From Methylocystis rosea SV97 (GTDB lineage: Bacteria; Pseudomonadota; Alphaproteobacteria; Rhizobiales; Beijerinckiaceae), in the NCBI RefSeq assembly GCF_000372845.1, contig NZ_KB889963.1, positions 3,058,304 to 3,122,303 of the forward strand: a stretch of 64,000 nt of DNA, in the 5' to 3' direction. Below the pieces are notes generated by a model. The model was not told the DNA's origin. It saw only the letters and a list, made by a program, of their open reading frames with translations, and ran no database searches. Positions 2,150-15,352 of the stretch are shown here, piece by piece. Positions within the stretch are counted from its first letter, which is position 1, and every line of letters begins with the position of its first letter. A program made the translations under genes and the position numbers.

Positions 2150-2353
2150 GTGTCCGGGCTATCGAAGAAGCGGCCGGCGGAGAAGGAACGCGGTCAGCGT
2201 CCCCTCTGGATAGCGATCGGCGGCTTGCTGGTCAGCGTTCTAAGCTACACCATGAGGGACCTGATGCTCGGCGACGTCGTTTTCTGGTTCGGCGTCGTGC
2301 TCGCTTTTATCGGCGTGCTTTACTGGTTCATTCGGCCGAAACACGGGCTGTAG
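2150..2353 (+). CDS. Small two-helix inner-membrane protein
   Basis: 67 residues starting at GTG 2150, with an excellent ribosome binding site (AGAAGGAGAGG) ending 4 bases upstream. The N-terminus is basic and cytosolic (SKKRPAEKERGQRP). It is followed by a hydrophobic helix at about residues 20-35 and a second at about 43-60, separated by a short loop, and ends in RPKHGL. This is the layout of small hairpin membrane proteins with both ends inside. No catalytic residue is visible and I cannot name a family. It stands between the repeat and the DsbA-like gene, in the same direction. Confidence 0.7.
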   Translation: MSGLSKKRPAEKERGQRPLWIAIGGLLVSVLSYTMRDLMLGDVVFWFGVVLAFIGVLYWFIRPKHGL

Positions 2354-2452
2354 CGCCCGGTTAGCGGCTCCCCATTCTCCTCGCCAGATTTGATTTGCCA
2401 CAATTGTCGAAGACGATATGGTCTTTGGCGTCGCAACAGTTACGGACCGAAC

Positions 2453-3106
2453 ATGCCCTTCGCTTTTATTATGCCCCGCCGTGGTTTTCTTATCGGCGCC
2501 GCCGGCGCGCTCCTCGCCGCAATGCCCGCCCTCGCCGAAAAGTCTGCTTCGGGCAAGGTCGCAATTGACGAGCTGATGGCGCCGAACGCTCTGCCGGACG
2601 TGGTGGAAGGCGCGGCGGACGCTCCCGTGACGATCGTCGAATATGCTTCGATGACGTGTAGCCACTGCGCGGCGTTCCATCACGACGTGTATCCGGAGCT
2701 GAAGAAGAACTATATCGACACGGGCAAGGCGAAATTCATTTTGCGTGAGTTCCCGCTCGATCCGCTCGCGACGGCCGCTTTCATGCTGGCGCGCGAACTC
2801 GGCGACAAGCGTGACGCGACGGTCGATCTTCTGTTCTCGCAGCAGAAGAATTGGGCCTTTTCCGACAAGCCGCTCGACGGCTTGGCCAATGTCTTGAAAC
2901 AGGCTGGGATCGGCCAGGAGAAGTTCGAGGCCGTCCTAAAGGATCAGACGCTTTACGAGAACGTCAATAAGGTGCGTAATCGCGCCGCCGAGAAATTTGG
3001 CGTCAACTCGACGCCGACCTTCTTCGTCAATGGCGACAAATACACCGGCGAGATCGGCGTTGAGGACTGGGAAAAGATCATCACATCGAAAACCGCAGCG
3101 AAATAA
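2453..3106 (+). CDS. DsbA-family thiol:disulfide protein with Tat-like leader
   Basis: About 217 residues from ATG 2453 (CGGA upstream); ATG 2471 would give 211 and still keep the leader. The leader PRRGFLIGAAGALLAAMPALAEK has twin Arg, a hydrophobic core and an ALA cut site, so export by Tat is likely. The mature protein is a DsbA/BdbD thioredoxin fold: EYASMTCSHCAAFH carries the CxxC site as CSHC, and STPTFFVNG carries the cis-proline. The family oxidises or isomerises cysteines of exported proteins in the periplasm. No DsbB-like partner is adjacent. A DsbD N-terminal-type protein is at 29953 and thioredoxin at 62521. Confidence 0.88.
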   Translation: MPFAFIMPRRGFLIGAAGALLAAMPALAEKSASGKVAIDELMAPNALPDVVEGAADAPVTIVEYASMTCSHCAAFHHDVYPELKKNYIDTGKAKFILREFPLDPLATAAFMLARELGDKRDATVDLLFSQQKNWAFSDKPLDGLANVLKQAGIGQEKFEAVLKDQTLYENVNKVRNRAAEKFGVNSTPTFFVNGDKYTGEIGVEDWEKIITSKTAAK

Positions 3107-3116
3107 TCGCTTCCCG

Positions 3117-3149
3117 CGCTGGATGGCGGCGTCAAGCCAGCCATGACGG
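3117..3149. repeat. Half copy of a palindromic intergenic repeat
   Basis: GCTGGATGGCGGCGTCAAG followed by CCAGCCATGACGG resembles the right half of the repeat at 3799-3908 (GTGGATGGCCGGCTCAAGG then CCGGCCATGACGC). It lies between the convergent DsbA-like and recR genes and could act as a terminator hairpin. Confidence 0.55.
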
Positions 3150-3165
3150 CTCTCAAAAACGTCCT

Positions 3166-3771
3166 CTAGAACGCGGTGCGCCGCTCCAGCGCCGCCGCTA
3201 GCGTTCCCTCATCGAGATAGTCGAGTTCGCCCCCGACCGGCACGCCGTGGGCGAGCCGCGTCACCTTCACGCCGGACGGCGACAGCACATCAGCGATGTA
3301 ATGCGCAGTCGTCTGTCCGTCGACCGTTGCGTTGACCGCAAGCACGACTTCGCGAGTCTCCTCTCCGCGCACACGCGCGACGAGGCTGGCGATGGCGAGA
3401 TCGTCCGGGCCAACGCCGTCAAGCGGCGACAGCACGCCGCCGAGCACGTGATAGCGCGCGTTGAGCAGCCCTGCCCGCTCCAGCGCCCATAGGTCGGCGA
3501 CCGTCTCGACGACAACCAGGATCGACCCGTCGCGGCGCGCGTCGCGGCAGATCGTACACGGATCGCTCGTATCGATATTTCCGCAGACCGAGCAAACGAC
3601 GATGCGCTCCTGCGCGACGCGCATCGCTTCGGCGAGCGGCGCCAGCAGTTCTTCGCGTTTGCGGATGAGATGCAGCGCCGCGCGCCGCGCCGACCGCGGG
3701 CCGAGCCCCGGCAATTTGGCCAGGAGCTGCACGAGTTTTTCGATCTCGGGACCGGCCACCTTTTCCGCCAT
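3166..3771 (-). CDS. recR: Recombination mediator protein RecR
   Basis: 201 residues, the usual RecR length. It has an N-terminal helix-hairpin-helix ([18 protein letters not shown]), a four-Cys zinc site [16 protein letters not shown] at about residues 60-75, and a C-terminal Toprim domain starting with [15 protein letters not shown]. RecR works with RecO and RecF to load RecA onto SSB-coated gaps. It is last in the operon dnaX-ybaB-recR, an arrangement conserved across many bacteria. A 156-base gap separates it from ybaB, and this gap holds a palindromic repeat. Confidence 0.97.
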
Positions 3772-3798
3772 AGCCGGATCAACGCCTCATGTGGTTTC

Positions 3799-3908
3799 GC
3801 GTCATGCCCGCGCTTGTCGCGGGCATCCACGTCAGAATGCTACGTATCATTGGAAGCTTTGGGCGGCGTCATCAGGTGGATGGCCGGCTCAAGGCCGGCC
3901 ATGACGCG
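3799..3908. repeat. Palindromic intergenic repeat (family C) between ybaB and recR
   Basis: It begins GCGTCATGCCCGCGCTTGTC with CGCGGGCATCCACGTC and ends GGCCGGCTCAAGGCCGGCC followed by ATGACGC. The outer ends are inverted (GCGTCATG/CATGACGC) and each half holds its own hairpin (CCCGCGcttgtCGCGGG and GGCCGGctcaaggCCGGCC). This is the style of mosaic intergenic repeat common in Rhizobiales. It interrupts the otherwise tight dnaX-ybaB-recR operon. Confidence 0.75.
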
Positions 3909-3927
3909 GGAATTGCAGCAATACGCA

Positions 3928-4251
3928 TCAAAACGGCAGTTTGAAGCCCGGCGGCAACGGCAGCCCGCCGGTGAGCGCTTTCATTTTTTCAGACATGGCC
4001 TCCTCGGCTTTGGCGCGCGCCTGCATGTGGGCCGTGAGAATCAGGTCTTGAAGAATTTCCTTCTCGTCGGGCGTCAGCAGACTCGGGTCGATGGAGATGC
4101 TTTTCATCCCACCTTTCGCGGTGAGCGCGACCCTCACCATGCCGCCGCCCGCCTCGCCTTCGACGACGGTCTGTTCGAGCTCCAGCTGCGCTTCGGCCAT
4201 CTTGGCCTGCATCTGCTGCGCCTGTTTCATCAGGCCCATGAAGTCCATCAT
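3928..4251 (-). CDS. YbaB/EbfC nucleoid-associated protein
   Basis: 107 residues. It starts MMDFMGLMKQAQQMQAKMAE, the Met/Gln-rich N-terminal helix typical of the family, continues with VEGEAGGGMVRVALTAKGGM, and ends in a Pro/Gly tail (GGLPLPPGFKLPF). Family members are small DNA-binding dimers that coat the chromosome. The ATG overlaps the dnaX stop by 4 bases (ATGA at 4248-4251), so translation is probably coupled. The position between dnaX and recR is the classic one and supports a link to replication and repair. Confidence 0.96.
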   Translation of the reverse strand: MMDFMGLMKQAQQMQAKMAEAQLELEQTVVEGEAGGGMVRVALTAKGGMKSISIDPSLLTPDEKEILQDLILTAHMQARAKAEEAMSEKMKALTGGLPLPPGFKLPF

Positions 4252-6125
4252 TGCGCTTCTCCGTCGTCTTCCTCGATTGGCGACGCCTCATCATAGAGCG
4301 TTTCGGCGGACGCTGCGCCCTCGTCCCTGCCCCGCACGGCGACGATCTGCGCGCCGGGAAAACGCGCAAGCACGCTCGCAACCAGCGGATCCGACTCAAG
4401 CGAGGAGCGGCGTTGGCGCTCTTCGGCATCGCGCTGTTCCTTGAGCGTCGGCGCGCCGCCCGAGGCCACGACCGACACCATCCAGCGCTCGCCGGTCCAA
4501 GCTTGAAGCCTCTGCATCAGAGTCGACGCCAGTTCACGCGCGCCGCCCGGCGCGAGTTCAAACTCGATCCGCCCCTGTTCAAACCGCACCAACCGCACTT
4601 CGGATTCGAGCCCGATCTTGAGGCGCATGTCACGTTTCTGCGCGGCAAGCGCGACAAGCGCATCGAAGCTCTCAATGGTGATTCCTGGCTCCGGCGCCGC
4701 AGATCTTGGCGCCGGCGCCGCAGAGGGCTGAGGCGCGGCGGAGCGCGGCGCCAGCGCGAATCTTTGGCCGCCGCCGAAAGCTTGCGGCGCAGCGCCAGCT
4801 CCGGCGGGCCCTGCGCTTCGCGCCGAGGGCGCCCCGGAGTCGGCGCTCGGCGCGCTCTCGCCAAAACCAAGGCGCCGCAGCGCCTCCGCCGGCGACGGCA
4901 TGTCGGCGGCGTAAGCGAGCCTGACCAGCACCATGTCGGCGGCCGCCAACGGTCGCTGCGAGCCGCGCAATTCATCGACGCCTTTCATCAAGATCTGCCA
5001 GGCGCGCGTGAGCGTGGGAACGGAAAGGCGCGCCGCCGCGTCTTCGCCACGGCGTTTCTCTTCGGGCGTCAGCGCCGCCGAATGGGCGGTCTCCGGCGCA
5101 AGCTTCAGGCGCGTCGCGAGATGCGTGAATTCGGCGAGTTCGAGCAGCACCTGCGCCGGATCGGCGCCGCCATTATACTGATCTTCGAGAATGGCGATCG
5201 CCTTGGCGATATCGCCCGACATCGCCGCTTCGAAAAGATCGATGATTCGCGCCTTGTCGGCGACGCCGAGCATCAGCCGCAGATCCTCGGCGGCGATCGC
5301 GCCGCCCGCAGAATGCGCCGCGCCATAGGCGATCGCCTGATCGAGCAAGGACAGCGCATCGCGGGCCGAGCCTTCCGCGGCGCGCGCGATCATGGCGAGC
5401 GCATCCGGCTCGATGGCGACGCCCTCGGCCTTGCAGACGCCAAACAGATGATTGGCGAGTAACCCCGCGTCGATGCGGCGCAGATCAAAGCGCTGGCAGC
5501 GCGAACGCACCGTCACCGGCACCTTGTCGATCTCGGTCGTCGCGAAGATGAACTTCACATGTTCAGGCGGCTCTTCGAGGGTCTTTAAGAGACCGTTAAA
5601 CGCGGCCTTCGAGAGCATGTGCACTTCGTCGATGATGTAGACTTTGGTCCGCGCCATGACCGGGCGGTAACGGGCGTTGTCGATGATCTCTCGGATGTCG
5701 TCGATGCCCGTGTGCGAAGCGGCGTCCATTTCGAGCACGTCGACATGGCGCGAGTCGATAATCGCCTGACAGTGGACGCCGAGCGCCTCCATATGAATCG
5801 TCGGCTGATTGATCGCGGGCCGCCCGTCTCCCGCCGGCAGTTCATAGTTGAACGCGCGCGCGAGAATGCGCGCGGTCGTCGTCTTGCCGACGCCGCGCAC
5901 GCCCGTCAGCAAATAGGCCTGGTGAATTCGGTTGAGATCGAATGCGTTTTCGAGCGTGCGCACCATCGGCTCTTGGCCGATCAGGTCTACGAAGGTGGTC
6001 GGTCGATATTTGCGCGCCAGCACGCGATAGGCCGACGGCGGCGCCTGATCGGCGCCAAACAGCGAAGGTCCGTCATCGGGCGCCAGCGATGGCCTCGGCG
6101 GATCGTGCTCGTGGTCCATCTGCAT
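4248..6125 (-). CDS. dnaX: DNA polymerase III subunits gamma and tau
   Basis: About 625 residues from the ATG at 6125 (MQMDHEHD); in-frame ATGs at 6170 and 6119 are alternatives, and none has a convincing ribosome binding site. The clamp-loader AAA+ core follows YRVLARKYRPTTFVDLIGQE: Walker A GVRGVGKTTTAR, Walker B YIIDEVHMLS, sensor region LLKTLEEPPEHVKFIFATTE. The zinc module is reduced to a single Cys (LGVHCQAI), as I recall for alphaproteobacterial DnaX. The tail from about residue 400 is Ala/Pro-rich, then a tau-type C-terminal region. DnaX builds the clamp loader that places the sliding clamp on primed DNA. First gene of dnaX-ybaB-recR. Confidence 0.96.
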   Translation of the reverse strand: MQMDHEHDPPRPSLAPDDGPSLFGADQAPPSAYRVLARKYRPTTFVDLIGQEPMVRTLENAFDLNRIHQAYLLTGVRGVGKTTTARILARAFNYELPAGDGRPAINQPTIHMEALGVHCQAIIDSRHVDVLEMDAASHTGIDDIREIIDNARYRPVMARTKVYIIDEVHMLSKAAFNGLLKTLEEPPEHVKFIFATTEIDKVPVTVRSRCQRFDLRRIDAGLLANHLFGVCKAEGVAIEPDALAMIARAAEGSARDALSLLDQAIAYGAAHSAGGAIAAEDLRLMLGVADKARIIDLFEAAMSGDIAKAIAILEDQYNGGADPAQVLLELAEFTHLATRLKLAPETAHSAALTPEEKRRGEDAAARLSVPTLTRAWQILMKGVDELRGSQRPLAAADMVLVRLAYAADMPSPAEALRRLGFGESAPSADSGAPSARSAGPAGAGAAPQAFGGGQRFALAPRSAAPQPSAAPAPRSAAPEPGITIESFDALVALAAQKRDMRLKIGLESEVRLVRFEQGRIEFELAPGGARELASTLMQRLQAWTGERWMVSVVASGGAPTLKEQRDAEERQRRSSLESDPLVASVLARFPGAQIVAVRGRDEGAASAETLYDEASPIEEDDGEAQ

Positions 6126-13972: not shown

Positions 13973-14746
13973 TTAACGTCGATAGAGCTGCTCTAGCGCA
14001 TCCGCGCCGAGGAGTTCGCGAAGACGGCCAAGGATCAGCAGCACGACGCCGAAAGTCGCCAGCGACATCCAGCCGAAAAAGACGAAGCCCCAGTGCAGCG
14101 GACCTGCAAAGCCTTCGTCCATCGCCCAGAATGTGTGACCCCATTCATTGAATCCCACATTCGGGATCGTCATGAAGACGCCAACGACAAGAACCACGAA
14201 GGCGAGAGAATATCCCTTCGCGAAAGTCGGCAGACGCGTTTTCGCATAGAAGAACGCGCCGAGGCCGATGATCGCAAAGAGCGGATACGCAATATAGAAG
14301 GTGATGATATTGCTCGGCGTGAAATCCGTGTCGCGCACGGCGGTCATATGCCAGACAGCCGTCTGCTCCGAAAAGAAGCTTAAGCCCCAAAACAGGGCGA
14401 GCGAGAAAACGAGCAGCCACTGGACGAGATAAACAAGCCGTCGCATTTCGGCTGCGGCTCCTAACTTCGCCAGATCGCGATCGCGCGTGCGCCACAGAAA
14501 GCCGACAAGGCCGATCGCGGCAAAGCTCGAGGCCATAATCGCAAACTGCAACAGGCCCATCCAATAGAGCTGAAACTCGGGGGAGAAGGAATCGAGACCA
14601 AATCTCCAGGCGAAAAGTTGTTCGTAGAGGCGCAGGATAGCCACGAACAACATCAAGGCCGGAACGCCGATAAGAACGGGCCTGGTGTCGATAATTCGTT
14701 CAGCGCTTCGGGCGGCGGAACGGGCCTCTGTTTTTGTCATGCTCAT
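13973..14746 (-). CDS. pmoC: Orphan PmoC/AmoC-family membrane subunit with altered copper ligands
   Basis: 257 residues from ATG 14746, preceded by GGAGAT. It is colinear with the C subunit of particulate methane monooxygenase: LRLYEQLFAWRFGLDSFSPE, FFSEQTAVWHMTAVRDTDF, PNVGFNEWGHTFW and GPLHWGFVFFGWM all match, with about six membrane segments. No pmoA or pmoB is adjacent. Using M. capsulatus (Bath) numbering, which aligns with a constant offset of 27, the CuD ligands Asn227, His231 and His245 are kept (N200, H204, H218). Of the CuC ligands Asp156, His160 and His173, only His160 is kept (H133): Asp is Thr129 and His173 is Asn146. It may not form the usual methane-oxidising complex. Codon and base use match the surroundings. 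Confidence 0.9.
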   Translation of the reverse strand: MSMTKTEARSAARSAERIIDTRPVLIGVPALMLFVAILRLYEQLFAWRFGLDSFSPEFQLYWMGLLQFAIMASSFAAIGLVGFLWRTRDRDLAKLGAAAEMRRLVYLVQWLLVFSLALFWGLSFFSEQTAVWHMTAVRDTDFTPSNIITFYIAYPLFAIIGLGAFFYAKTRLPTFAKGYSLAFVVLVVGVFMTIPNVGFNEWGHTFWAMDEGFAGPLHWGFVFFGWMSLATFGVVLLILGRLRELLGADALEQLYRR

Positions 14747-14944
14747 AAGTCATCTCCGAAAGACTGGTTATGCGGGGCATGAAGCCCCTTCGAATGGTTT
14801 TGATGCGCGCGCGCTCGGCGGTCGCCGCGTCTGCTCTCGCAGCCGTGGCGGCAGGATCCGTTTGAAAGATTTCGCGAACGCGCTCTCGCGGGCATCGCCA
14901 TCGCAAGGATGGCGGCTGCGTTGAATTTCAGCGCAAGAAAAACG

Positions 14945-15352
14945 TCAGCCCTGTCGGGGAGGAGCTCGTGGCGATTGTGGCGCGCGCCGTGGCTCGATGC
15001 GCGGCGCCTGACTGGAAGTGTCCGGCCGAGGCGAATGAGCCTCGGTGGGAAAAATCAGAGCGATCGAAACAACTGGCTTGGAAGGAGGAACGTCCAACGC
15101 GCCACTGTGAAGAACGCAACAGAATCCATGGCGGTGGCGTTCATTCGGGACAAGCGGCGGCTCGCCGTTCACCGCATCCTGCGGCGCACAGATCGTTCCG
15201 AAAGCGACGCCTTCTCCCAGCGCAACGGCGCCCGCGCCCGCGCTCGTGGTCTGCACGAGCATAAGGAAGGCGACGAGCCCCGCAAAAATGCGCGCGCGCT
15301 GACGTGTCCGCTGGAAAATTGGATCCACCGCCGCCTCTCGGGTTCCAAGCAT
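14945..15352 (-). CDS. Small exported Cys/His-rich protein, possibly DUF2946-like
   Basis: 135 residues from ATG 15352. A hydrophobic stretch (IFAGLVAFLMLVQTTSAGAG) at about residues 22-42 looks like a signal anchor or leader. The centre has FGTICAPQ and then NERHRHGFCCVLHSG, a spaced Cys...His-x-His-Gly-x-Cys-Cys...His arrangement reminiscent of DUF2946 proteins, which are often linked to copper handling. The tail is Pro/Arg/Ser-rich. It lies 198 bases upstream of the orphan pmoC in the same direction. The gap between them shows no gene. Family assignment is tentative, and the start has no strong ribosome binding site. Confidence 0.6.
   Translation of the reverse strand: MLGTREAAVDPIFQRTRQRARIFAGLVAFLMLVQTTSAGAGAVALGEGVAFGTICAPQDAVNGEPPLVPNERHRHGFCCVLHSGALDVPPSKPVVSIALIFPTEAHSPRPDTSSQAPRIEPRRAPQSPRAPPRQG

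Follow-up and report, generated by a model that had tools for sequence, protein, structure and literature searches.

An orphan PmoC of Methylocystis without CuC copper ligands, encoded behind a CruR/CutF-like leader ORF

Small copper-responsive leader proteins of the DUF2946 family have been described in two bacteria. In Bordetella pertussis, copper at the CXXC motif of CruR relieves ribosome arrest at a RAPP motif, the two motifs lying 45 residues apart, after which Rho ends transcription and the operon is off with copper (PMC9426467). In Rhodobacter capsulatus, copper delays the export of CutF and opens a stem-loop over the Shine-Dalgarno (SD) sequence of cutO, which turns this gene on with copper; a survey in the same study found clusters of CutF-type leaders with cysteine, histidine or mixed motifs, most of them followed by less than 100 nt of intergenic sequence, compared with 162 nt for CruR (PMC9973294). 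In these papers, both DUF2946-family proteins are copper-responsive leaders, and the main texts of the CruR, CutF and earlier CutF papers mention neither methane, pmoC nor Methylocystis.

The second background concerns PmoC, whose methane-oxidising copper site is debated. CuC, which has been described as conserved in all pMMOs, is formed by D129/H133/H146 in Rockwell numbering (PMC6572826). In the numbering of Methylococcus capsulatus (Bath), CuC comprises D156/H160/H173 and CuD comprises N227/H231/H245, and the two sites were never jointly occupied in the cryo-EM structures of that study (PMC12576850). Mutation of the PmoC-type metal ligands of a hydrocarbon monooxygenase, those of CuC included, left no activity (Liew 2014 as cited in PMC6572826). 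Stand-alone pmoC genes are known from phages, and Asp156, His160 and His173 are reported to be kept in them (PMC7674155). They are also known from Methylocystis sp. SC2, which carries two pmoCAB1 operons, one pmoCAB2 operon, pmoC1Gs (identical to pmoC1, with ftsH adjoining) and pmoC2Gs, the function of monocistronic pmoC being described as yet to be identified (PMC3794950, PMC9600857). The monocistronic pmoC B1812_06380 of M. bryophila is reported to be up at ambient O2 (PMC12319191).

In the window, by which we mean the whole 64,000-nt stretch of Methylocystis rosea SV97 DNA that was analysed, we found a pmoC gene, designated pmoC*, together with a small leader ORF (Table 1).

Table 1. Features of the leader-pmoC* unit (window positions) and related leaders at sMMO clusters (positions given with the locus).
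Feature	Position	Strand	Basis or remark
Orphan PmoC without CuC ligands (PmoC*)	13973..14746	minus	257 aa; PF04896, T/N clade, SC2 pmoC2Gs orthologue
His218 codon, retained CuD ligand	14093..14095	minus	translation; coordinates by arithmetic
His204 codon, retained CuD ligand	14135..14137	minus	translation; coordinates by arithmetic
Asn200 codon, retained CuD ligand	14147..14149	minus	translation; coordinates by arithmetic
Asn146 codon, replaces CuC His	14309..14311	minus	translation; coordinates by arithmetic
His133 codon, sole CuC ligand retained	14348..14350	minus	translation; coordinates by arithmetic
Thr129 codon, replaces CuC Asp	14360..14362	minus	translation; coordinates by arithmetic
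Leader-pmoC* intergenic region, 198 nt (148-257 nt in relatives)	14747..14944	minus	sequence
GGAGA, likely SD of pmoC*	14753..14757	minus	sequence
Leader ORF, DUF2946-like, CruR/CutF-type, 135 aa, hydrophobic N-terminus	14945..15352	minus	weak PF11162; directly upstream of pmoC*
RAPP arrest-type motif of leader, codons CGA GCT CCT CCC	14957..14968	minus	R and the two P never vary across 25 leaders
C-C-V-L-H putative copper-binding motif (Cys78, Cys79, His82)	15107..15121	minus	CC and H, like a Cys before them, invariant in 25 leaders
sMMO-cluster leaders in L146, L147, L148	~4071-4570	plus	
sMMO-cluster leader in L149	12546-13187	minus	

The PF04896 profile matches the full PmoC* protein (5.9e-90, 301 bits, cut-off 26.7), which falls just under the NCBIfam equivalog cut-offs of TIGR03078 (methane/ammonia monooxygenase subunit C; 276.9 vs 280.6) and NF041641 (subunit C; 302.3 vs 319). 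In phmmer searches, PmoC* aligned with Methylocystis sp. M PmoC (3rfr) ungapped at offset 0, and its residues 5-235 aligned with residues 32-262 of the M. capsulatus Bath PmoC chain (1yew), that is, with the constant offset of 27 given in a preliminary description of this DNA; misalignment at the CuC columns is thereby ruled out. The published ligands therefore map onto positions 129/133/146 and 200/204/218 of PmoC*. That description had read T129/H133/N146 and N200/H204/H218 in a 257-aa orphan PmoC, which our translation reproduced, and had given the CuC and CuD ligands in Bath numbering in agreement with the published ones (PMC12576850). Its central claim, that one PmoC copper site is lost and the other kept, stands accordingly: the CuC ligands are replaced and the CuD ligands are intact. 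Because only one CuC histidine is left, a copper site is unlikely to form there, and the CuC position of PmoC* is very probably without copper. An AlphaFold model (mean pLDDT 71.7) scored below 50 at residues 1-15, 127-142 and 194-210, and was left out of the geometry reasoning because the latter two stretches lie in the metal region.

The M. rosea SV97 genome has seven PmoC-like places, pmoC* included. These comprise three canonical copies of one identical sequence, a further copy whose ligands are canonical but which has no PmoA in its vicinity, a copy on a second contig that adjoins a PmoA, and an N-terminal fragment; PmoC* is ~56% identical to the genome's own canonical copies. The PmoA family PF02461 occurs at three places in the genome, none within the window, in line with the earlier statement that no pmoA lies near pmoC*. 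Compared with canonical Methylocystis PmoC (3rfr, 4phz, 7s4m), PmoC* belongs to the same family and shares the CuD ligands, but it has T/N in place of the CuC D/H pair, no pmoA partner nearby and a leader of its own; it likewise stands alone as the phage PmoC does, but differs from it at the CuC ligands. A truncated pmoC (1450-2127 of L007, 3520324-3520623 of the window's genome) has ~100 N-terminal PmoC-like residues followed by an unrelated reading.

Next, we compared the CuC and CuD columns among PmoC sequences found by tblastn in named-species genomes (best 80 of 376 loci) and in 39 genomes of the genus Methylocystis, a set in which the pmoC* orthologue group spans 59-100% identity. Of the 127 tblastn rows, some of which are one gene fetched twice, 4 miss the CuC site and 123 cover it. 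The results showed T and N at the CuC columns in all 39 orthologue rows covering the site and D and H in all 84 other PmoC rows covering it, while the CuD ligands N200-H204-H218 were present in each row covering those positions. Such a split (39/39 vs 84/84) argues that the ligand change in PmoC* is not due to chance, and the preliminary concern that canonical PmoC might vary freely at these columns found no example, since no D/H row in the set varies. The T/N rows came only from Methylocystis, Methylocystaceae and alphaproteobacterial MAGs (among the best 80 of 376 loci), and an order-level draw of 297 genomes added no new one; gammaproteobacterial sequences are few in the set, and verrucomicrobial and AmoC sequences lie outside it. 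One poor match (L161; 30%, internal stop, reading L/H/A) was set aside.

For the tree, we used 87 distinct proteins (24 T/N and 63 D/H), each spanning at least 226 query positions, and left out L062 (stop), identical copies and fragments. As the mapping of orphan copies proposed in the preliminary description now shows, the 24 T/N proteins form a single clade (support 100/100; 100% of bootstrap trees), which persists with an aLRT of 99 in a quick tree from which all 17 clade-diagnostic columns had been taken out, as had the long Pxm row. This clade joins, through a long stem (0.72), the Methylocystaceae group that contains the genome's canonical PmoC. Its most distant row, L119, has a long branch (program warning), and the placement of L119 itself is less sure. 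Among the 24 T/N proteins, Thr129 is encoded by ACG (18), ACC (4), ACA (1) or ACT (1) and Asn146 by AAT (19) or AAC (5); with four Thr and two Asn codons in use, the amino acids have been conserved despite changes in the bases. The clade is under purifying selection like canonical pmoC: the median dN/dS (Nei-Gojobori) was 0.164 (range 0.045-0.338, 266 of 276 pairs used), against 0.182 for 11 canonical copies (54 of 55 pairs), so that the decay that the preliminary description had wished to check for is not seen.

The T/N group also includes a gene that is already on record. The SC2 genome (G012) contains three pmoC1 genes (one beside ftsH), one pmoC2-like gene and a T/N gene; this inventory matches the published one, and pmoC2Gs (UniProt J7QLZ6) is therefore the T/N gene and the orthologue of pmoC*. 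It is listed without mention of lost ligands or a leader in the accessible parts of PMC3794950 and PMC9600857. By proteomics, SC2 PmoC2Gs was quantified at 4.5e5 (1 mM ammonium) to 2.2e6 (75 mM), compared with 1.8e8 for PmoC1 at 1 mM, and it rises with ammonium (log2 2.3 at 75 mM), the treatments being ammonium levels and not copper (PMC9600857). In the literature searched, we found no data on the expression of pmoC* against copper.

A question raised by the ligand change is whether PmoC* works inside pMMO. Of 99 positions at which the 63 other PmoC proteins show 95% conservation or more, the T/N proteins keep 71, have lost 20 and keep 8 in part. The losses include D129T and H146N as well as three acidic residues, E149T (three residues past H146), E69A and E73S, and 13 of the 20 fall in the metal-ligand stretches 121-160 and 191-225; the 71 kept positions are spread across the whole protein. 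PmoC* might instead be a free-standing membrane protein for copper handling, copper storage or sensing, with the PmoC fold and CuD ligands turned to a new purpose. Such a role would fit the lack of a pmoA nearby in the window's genome and the concentration of changes around the ligands; however, the conservation of 71 positions throughout the protein seemingly exceeds the needs of a metal-site scaffold, and we consider this alternative unlikely. As to partnership with PmoA/PmoB, we regard the chances as even, which is a weaker claim than that of copper sensing made below.

We then examined the DNA upstream of pmoC*, where the preliminary description had overlooked the leader ORF. Its match to PF11162 (DUF2946) is below the cut-off (E 3.4e-4; 21.8 bits, cut-off 23.7), it matches no NCBIfam model, its signal peptide was judged by eye, and its C-terminus reads SPRAPPRQG. 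A leader homologue precedes the T/N gene in each of the 24 distinct loci whose upstream DNA is long enough, but precedes the D/H gene in none of 69 loci; CC..H with R.PP was absent upstream in all 78 D/H rows examined, the comparison leaving out 3 T/N and 6 D/H rows with less than 650 nt upstream. A looser scan (PP near the end plus a Cys motif) gave a few unrelated ORFs near the D/H copies L030, L051, L067 and L074, and its hits at L084 and L093 are artefacts that arose because upstream DNA was missing. Seven longer loci (L029, L126-L130 and L132) have leader and pmoC* as the sole window neighbours found, and in an eighth, L131, polA lies ~5.5 kb away; the two genes thus move as a pair. In G031, they are located at the ends of two different contigs.

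In an alignment of 25 leaders, which includes those of L103 and L104, no variation occurs at A, Q, C, CC, H, P, R, P and P, columns that make up the metal motif, the RAPP motif and little else. R.PP is invariant, with the Ala replaced by Pro or Gly in three leaders, and RAPP follows 44-46 residues after the His, counted from the next position. The leader has no CXXC; it has CC..H, or CC..HC in some relatives, and only this latter subgroup (CCxxHC) holds a CxxxC, the C-terminal PP being present. Its median dN/dS is 0.433 (217 usable of 300 pairs, none >1). The resemblance to CruR-bfrG-bp2921 lies in a small first ORF, a Cys motif and RAPP ~45 residues apart, a long intergenic region and a copper-related downstream gene, but the pmoC* leader has CC..H in place of CXXC and precedes a methane monooxygenase subunit, not a TonB receptor. 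With CutF-CutO the unit shares a DUF2946-like leader before a copper-linked gene and the C-terminal PP; it differs in the longer intergenic region, another Cys/His motif and the lack of an established SD-shielding stem-loop. Judged by its sequence, the leader is CruR/CutF-like, and we do not file it as CruR because it lacks a strict CXXC and scores below the Pfam cut-off. By homology with these systems, we infer copper sensing and ribosome arrest by the leader, which very probably puts pmoC* under copper control. The preliminary description had offered a regulatory or assembly subunit or a subunit of a variant complex, a reading that this sensor-like ORF narrows to a copper-controlled PmoC isoform.

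Related leaders precede other genes as well. At least eight leaders that end in R.PP occur in the window's genome, that of pmoC* included. Three precede TonB-dependent receptors, and behind one of these receptors comes PepSY_TM, the layout of the CruR operon; one precedes ExbB and ExbD, and one precedes MbnP and a di-haem peroxidase. The other two, DUF2946-like with RAPP, stand in tandem with nothing identified after them (~2302734-2303935 of the window's genome; 6735-7178 and 7514-7936 on the plus strand of L144). The genes identified behind these other leaders belong to the uptake type or have a link to it, and they presumably serve copper.

The leader search further revealed a link to soluble methane monooxygenase. 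The sMMO gamma family PF02964 was found in 7 of the 39 genus genomes, of which 6 also carry pmoC*, so that pmoC* does not simply replace an absent sMMO. A leader with CCVLH and PRAPP lies at the sMMO genes in four of the seven genomes (G004, G006, G007 and G022), and the search found none beside sMMO in G001, G005 and G010. The sMMO-side leader precedes a DUF1097 gene, a sigma-54 activator and a GroEL-like gene, the latter two presumably being MmoR and the chaperonin MmoG; in G004, the sMMO structural genes are on the opposite strand from the leader unit. This position suggests posttranscriptional copper control of sMMO. In the leader tree, which likewise includes L103 and L104, the sMMO leaders fall near those of pmoC*, and a fork (92/96, not starred) separates both from eight others, of which seven belong to the window's genome and one to G004. 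L150, L151, L153, L154 and L155, whose leaders have different or unknown neighbours, nevertheless group among those of pmoC*, so such leaders are not confined to pmoC*; many branches are long.

Taken together, these data lead us to a two-gene unit of a CruR/CutF-kind leader and a CuC-less PmoC isoform, probably made at low copper, with a copper-sparing or place-holding function; for this explanation as a whole, the odds seem to us balanced. In this scheme, the nascent leader chain would be exported, copper would bind its CC..H motif, and ribosome arrest at RAPP would set the expression of the next gene, pmoC*. If the leader acts in the CruR direction, PmoC* would be made when copper is scarce; we consider this probable, though less firmly than copper sensing, and the direction is favoured by the uptake-type genes behind the sister leaders, the sMMO leaders and the long intergenic region. 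PmoC*, unable to fill CuC but retaining the CuD ligands and most PmoC-conserved residues, could then sustain PmoA/PmoB assemblies, or copper handling of the CuD type, while CuC stays unloaded. Given the inactive CuC-ligand mutants of the hydrocarbon monooxygenase, a PmoC* complex may well be inactive, and for the same reason the PmoC* sequence is no proof of catalysis by CuD alone.

The same leader-pmoC* unit could also run in the CutF mode, in which copper causes the arrest, the SD structure opens and PmoC* is made at high copper, for example for copper buffering or pMMO modification. CutF works in this way in R. capsulatus (PMC9973294), and some relatives have CCxxHC, that is, the CxxxC of CutF. 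As the motif pattern misses two of the 24 loci (CCVVH in L103 and L104), folds and CTCC counts cover 22. A CTCC complementary to the SD occurs near the arrest motif in 22/22 leaders, at two main codon positions; with a chance of ~0.15-0.27 for each and the leaders being related, it is suggestive only as an SD partner. In the per-sequence folds, the SD is often paired, but its partners differ: it pairs mostly with the leader's last codons in 6 of 22, the window's own (0.13) not among them, and no constant SD-sequestering hairpin was found by this folding of the 22 loci. A sense-strand C-over-G stretch at the 3' end of the leader, reached by 0.6% of 1551 control windows with no correction for choosing the maximum, is only compatible with Rho termination. 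Because the SD partners differ and only 6 of 22 involve mostly leader codons, these folds do not establish a mechanism of either the CutF or the Rho kind. Against the CutF mode, the intergenic region of 148-257 nt resembles that of CruR (162 nt) and not those of most CutF-type leaders (<100 nt), RAPP and the ~45-residue spacing are those of CruR, the sister leaders stand at uptake-type genes and the sMMO regulator, whose functions are expected at low copper, and the SD is not mostly paired with leader codons in 16 of 22 folds. We therefore judge this mode quite unlikely.

pmoC* was counted in 25 of the 39 genus genomes, as an open frame in 23, with a frameshift near residue 52 in G031 and split over contig ends in G016, whose ligand columns were read from L083, taken as the same genome. 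It was not found in the other 14, at least 8 of which are more than 90% complete, so the gene is dispensable in the genus. The frameshift near residue 52 seen in L116/L027 (one genome in two collections) may be lineage decay or a MAG error. A redundant copy drifting to loss with neutral ligand changes could account for this frameshift and for the 14 genomes without the gene, but is highly improbable in view of purifying selection like that on canonical pmoC, T and N that stay invariant despite synonymous change, the leader kept alongside and the protein detected in SC2 (PMC9600857); the dN/dS values, the synonymous changes in codons 129 and 146 and the retained leader rule out the decay of a spare copy.

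It is already known that the gene is listed as a monocistronic pmoC (SC2 pmoC2Gs) and that its protein is detected. The loss of the CuC ligands, its fixation across the genus and the leader are apparently new, as we found none of them reported in the literature searched, which was represented mostly by listed entries. Likewise, among the matches listed, no link of a DUF2946/CruR-type leader to pmoC or sMMO was found, in a search that did not extend to the supplements of Roy 2022 and Ozturk 2023. A genus-wide clade in which CuC is lost and CuD kept, present in culturable strains including SC2, offers a ready test protein for the debate on the catalytic site, and the copper-sensor-like leader with its relatives at the sMMO regulator suggests a posttranscriptional copper layer over the methane monooxygenases. 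More tentatively, and with the chances against it, PmoC* may enter pMMO at low copper as a starvation swap that yields a CuC-free, CuD-only complex, while related leaders control the sMMO regulator. If so, both methane monooxygenases would be adjusted by a single posttranscriptional copper switch, and the exchange of subunits would provide a natural test of which PmoC copper site is important.

Minor observations were also made near the leaders. In L018, a 956-aa ORF that looks by eye like an acyl-activating or acyltransferase protein (2228-5098, minus strand) lies between aroC and the leader; this ORF is absent in the window, and the same position shows a gap of comparable length in several relatives. 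A Cys-rich peptide of 86-87 aa, with a CHTPKNACKG stretch and a signal-like start, follows a leader of the pmoC* kind by ~840 nt in L150 and ~283 nt in L151. The one tested (86 aa) had no Pfam match, and we take these peptides to resemble the BufA type.
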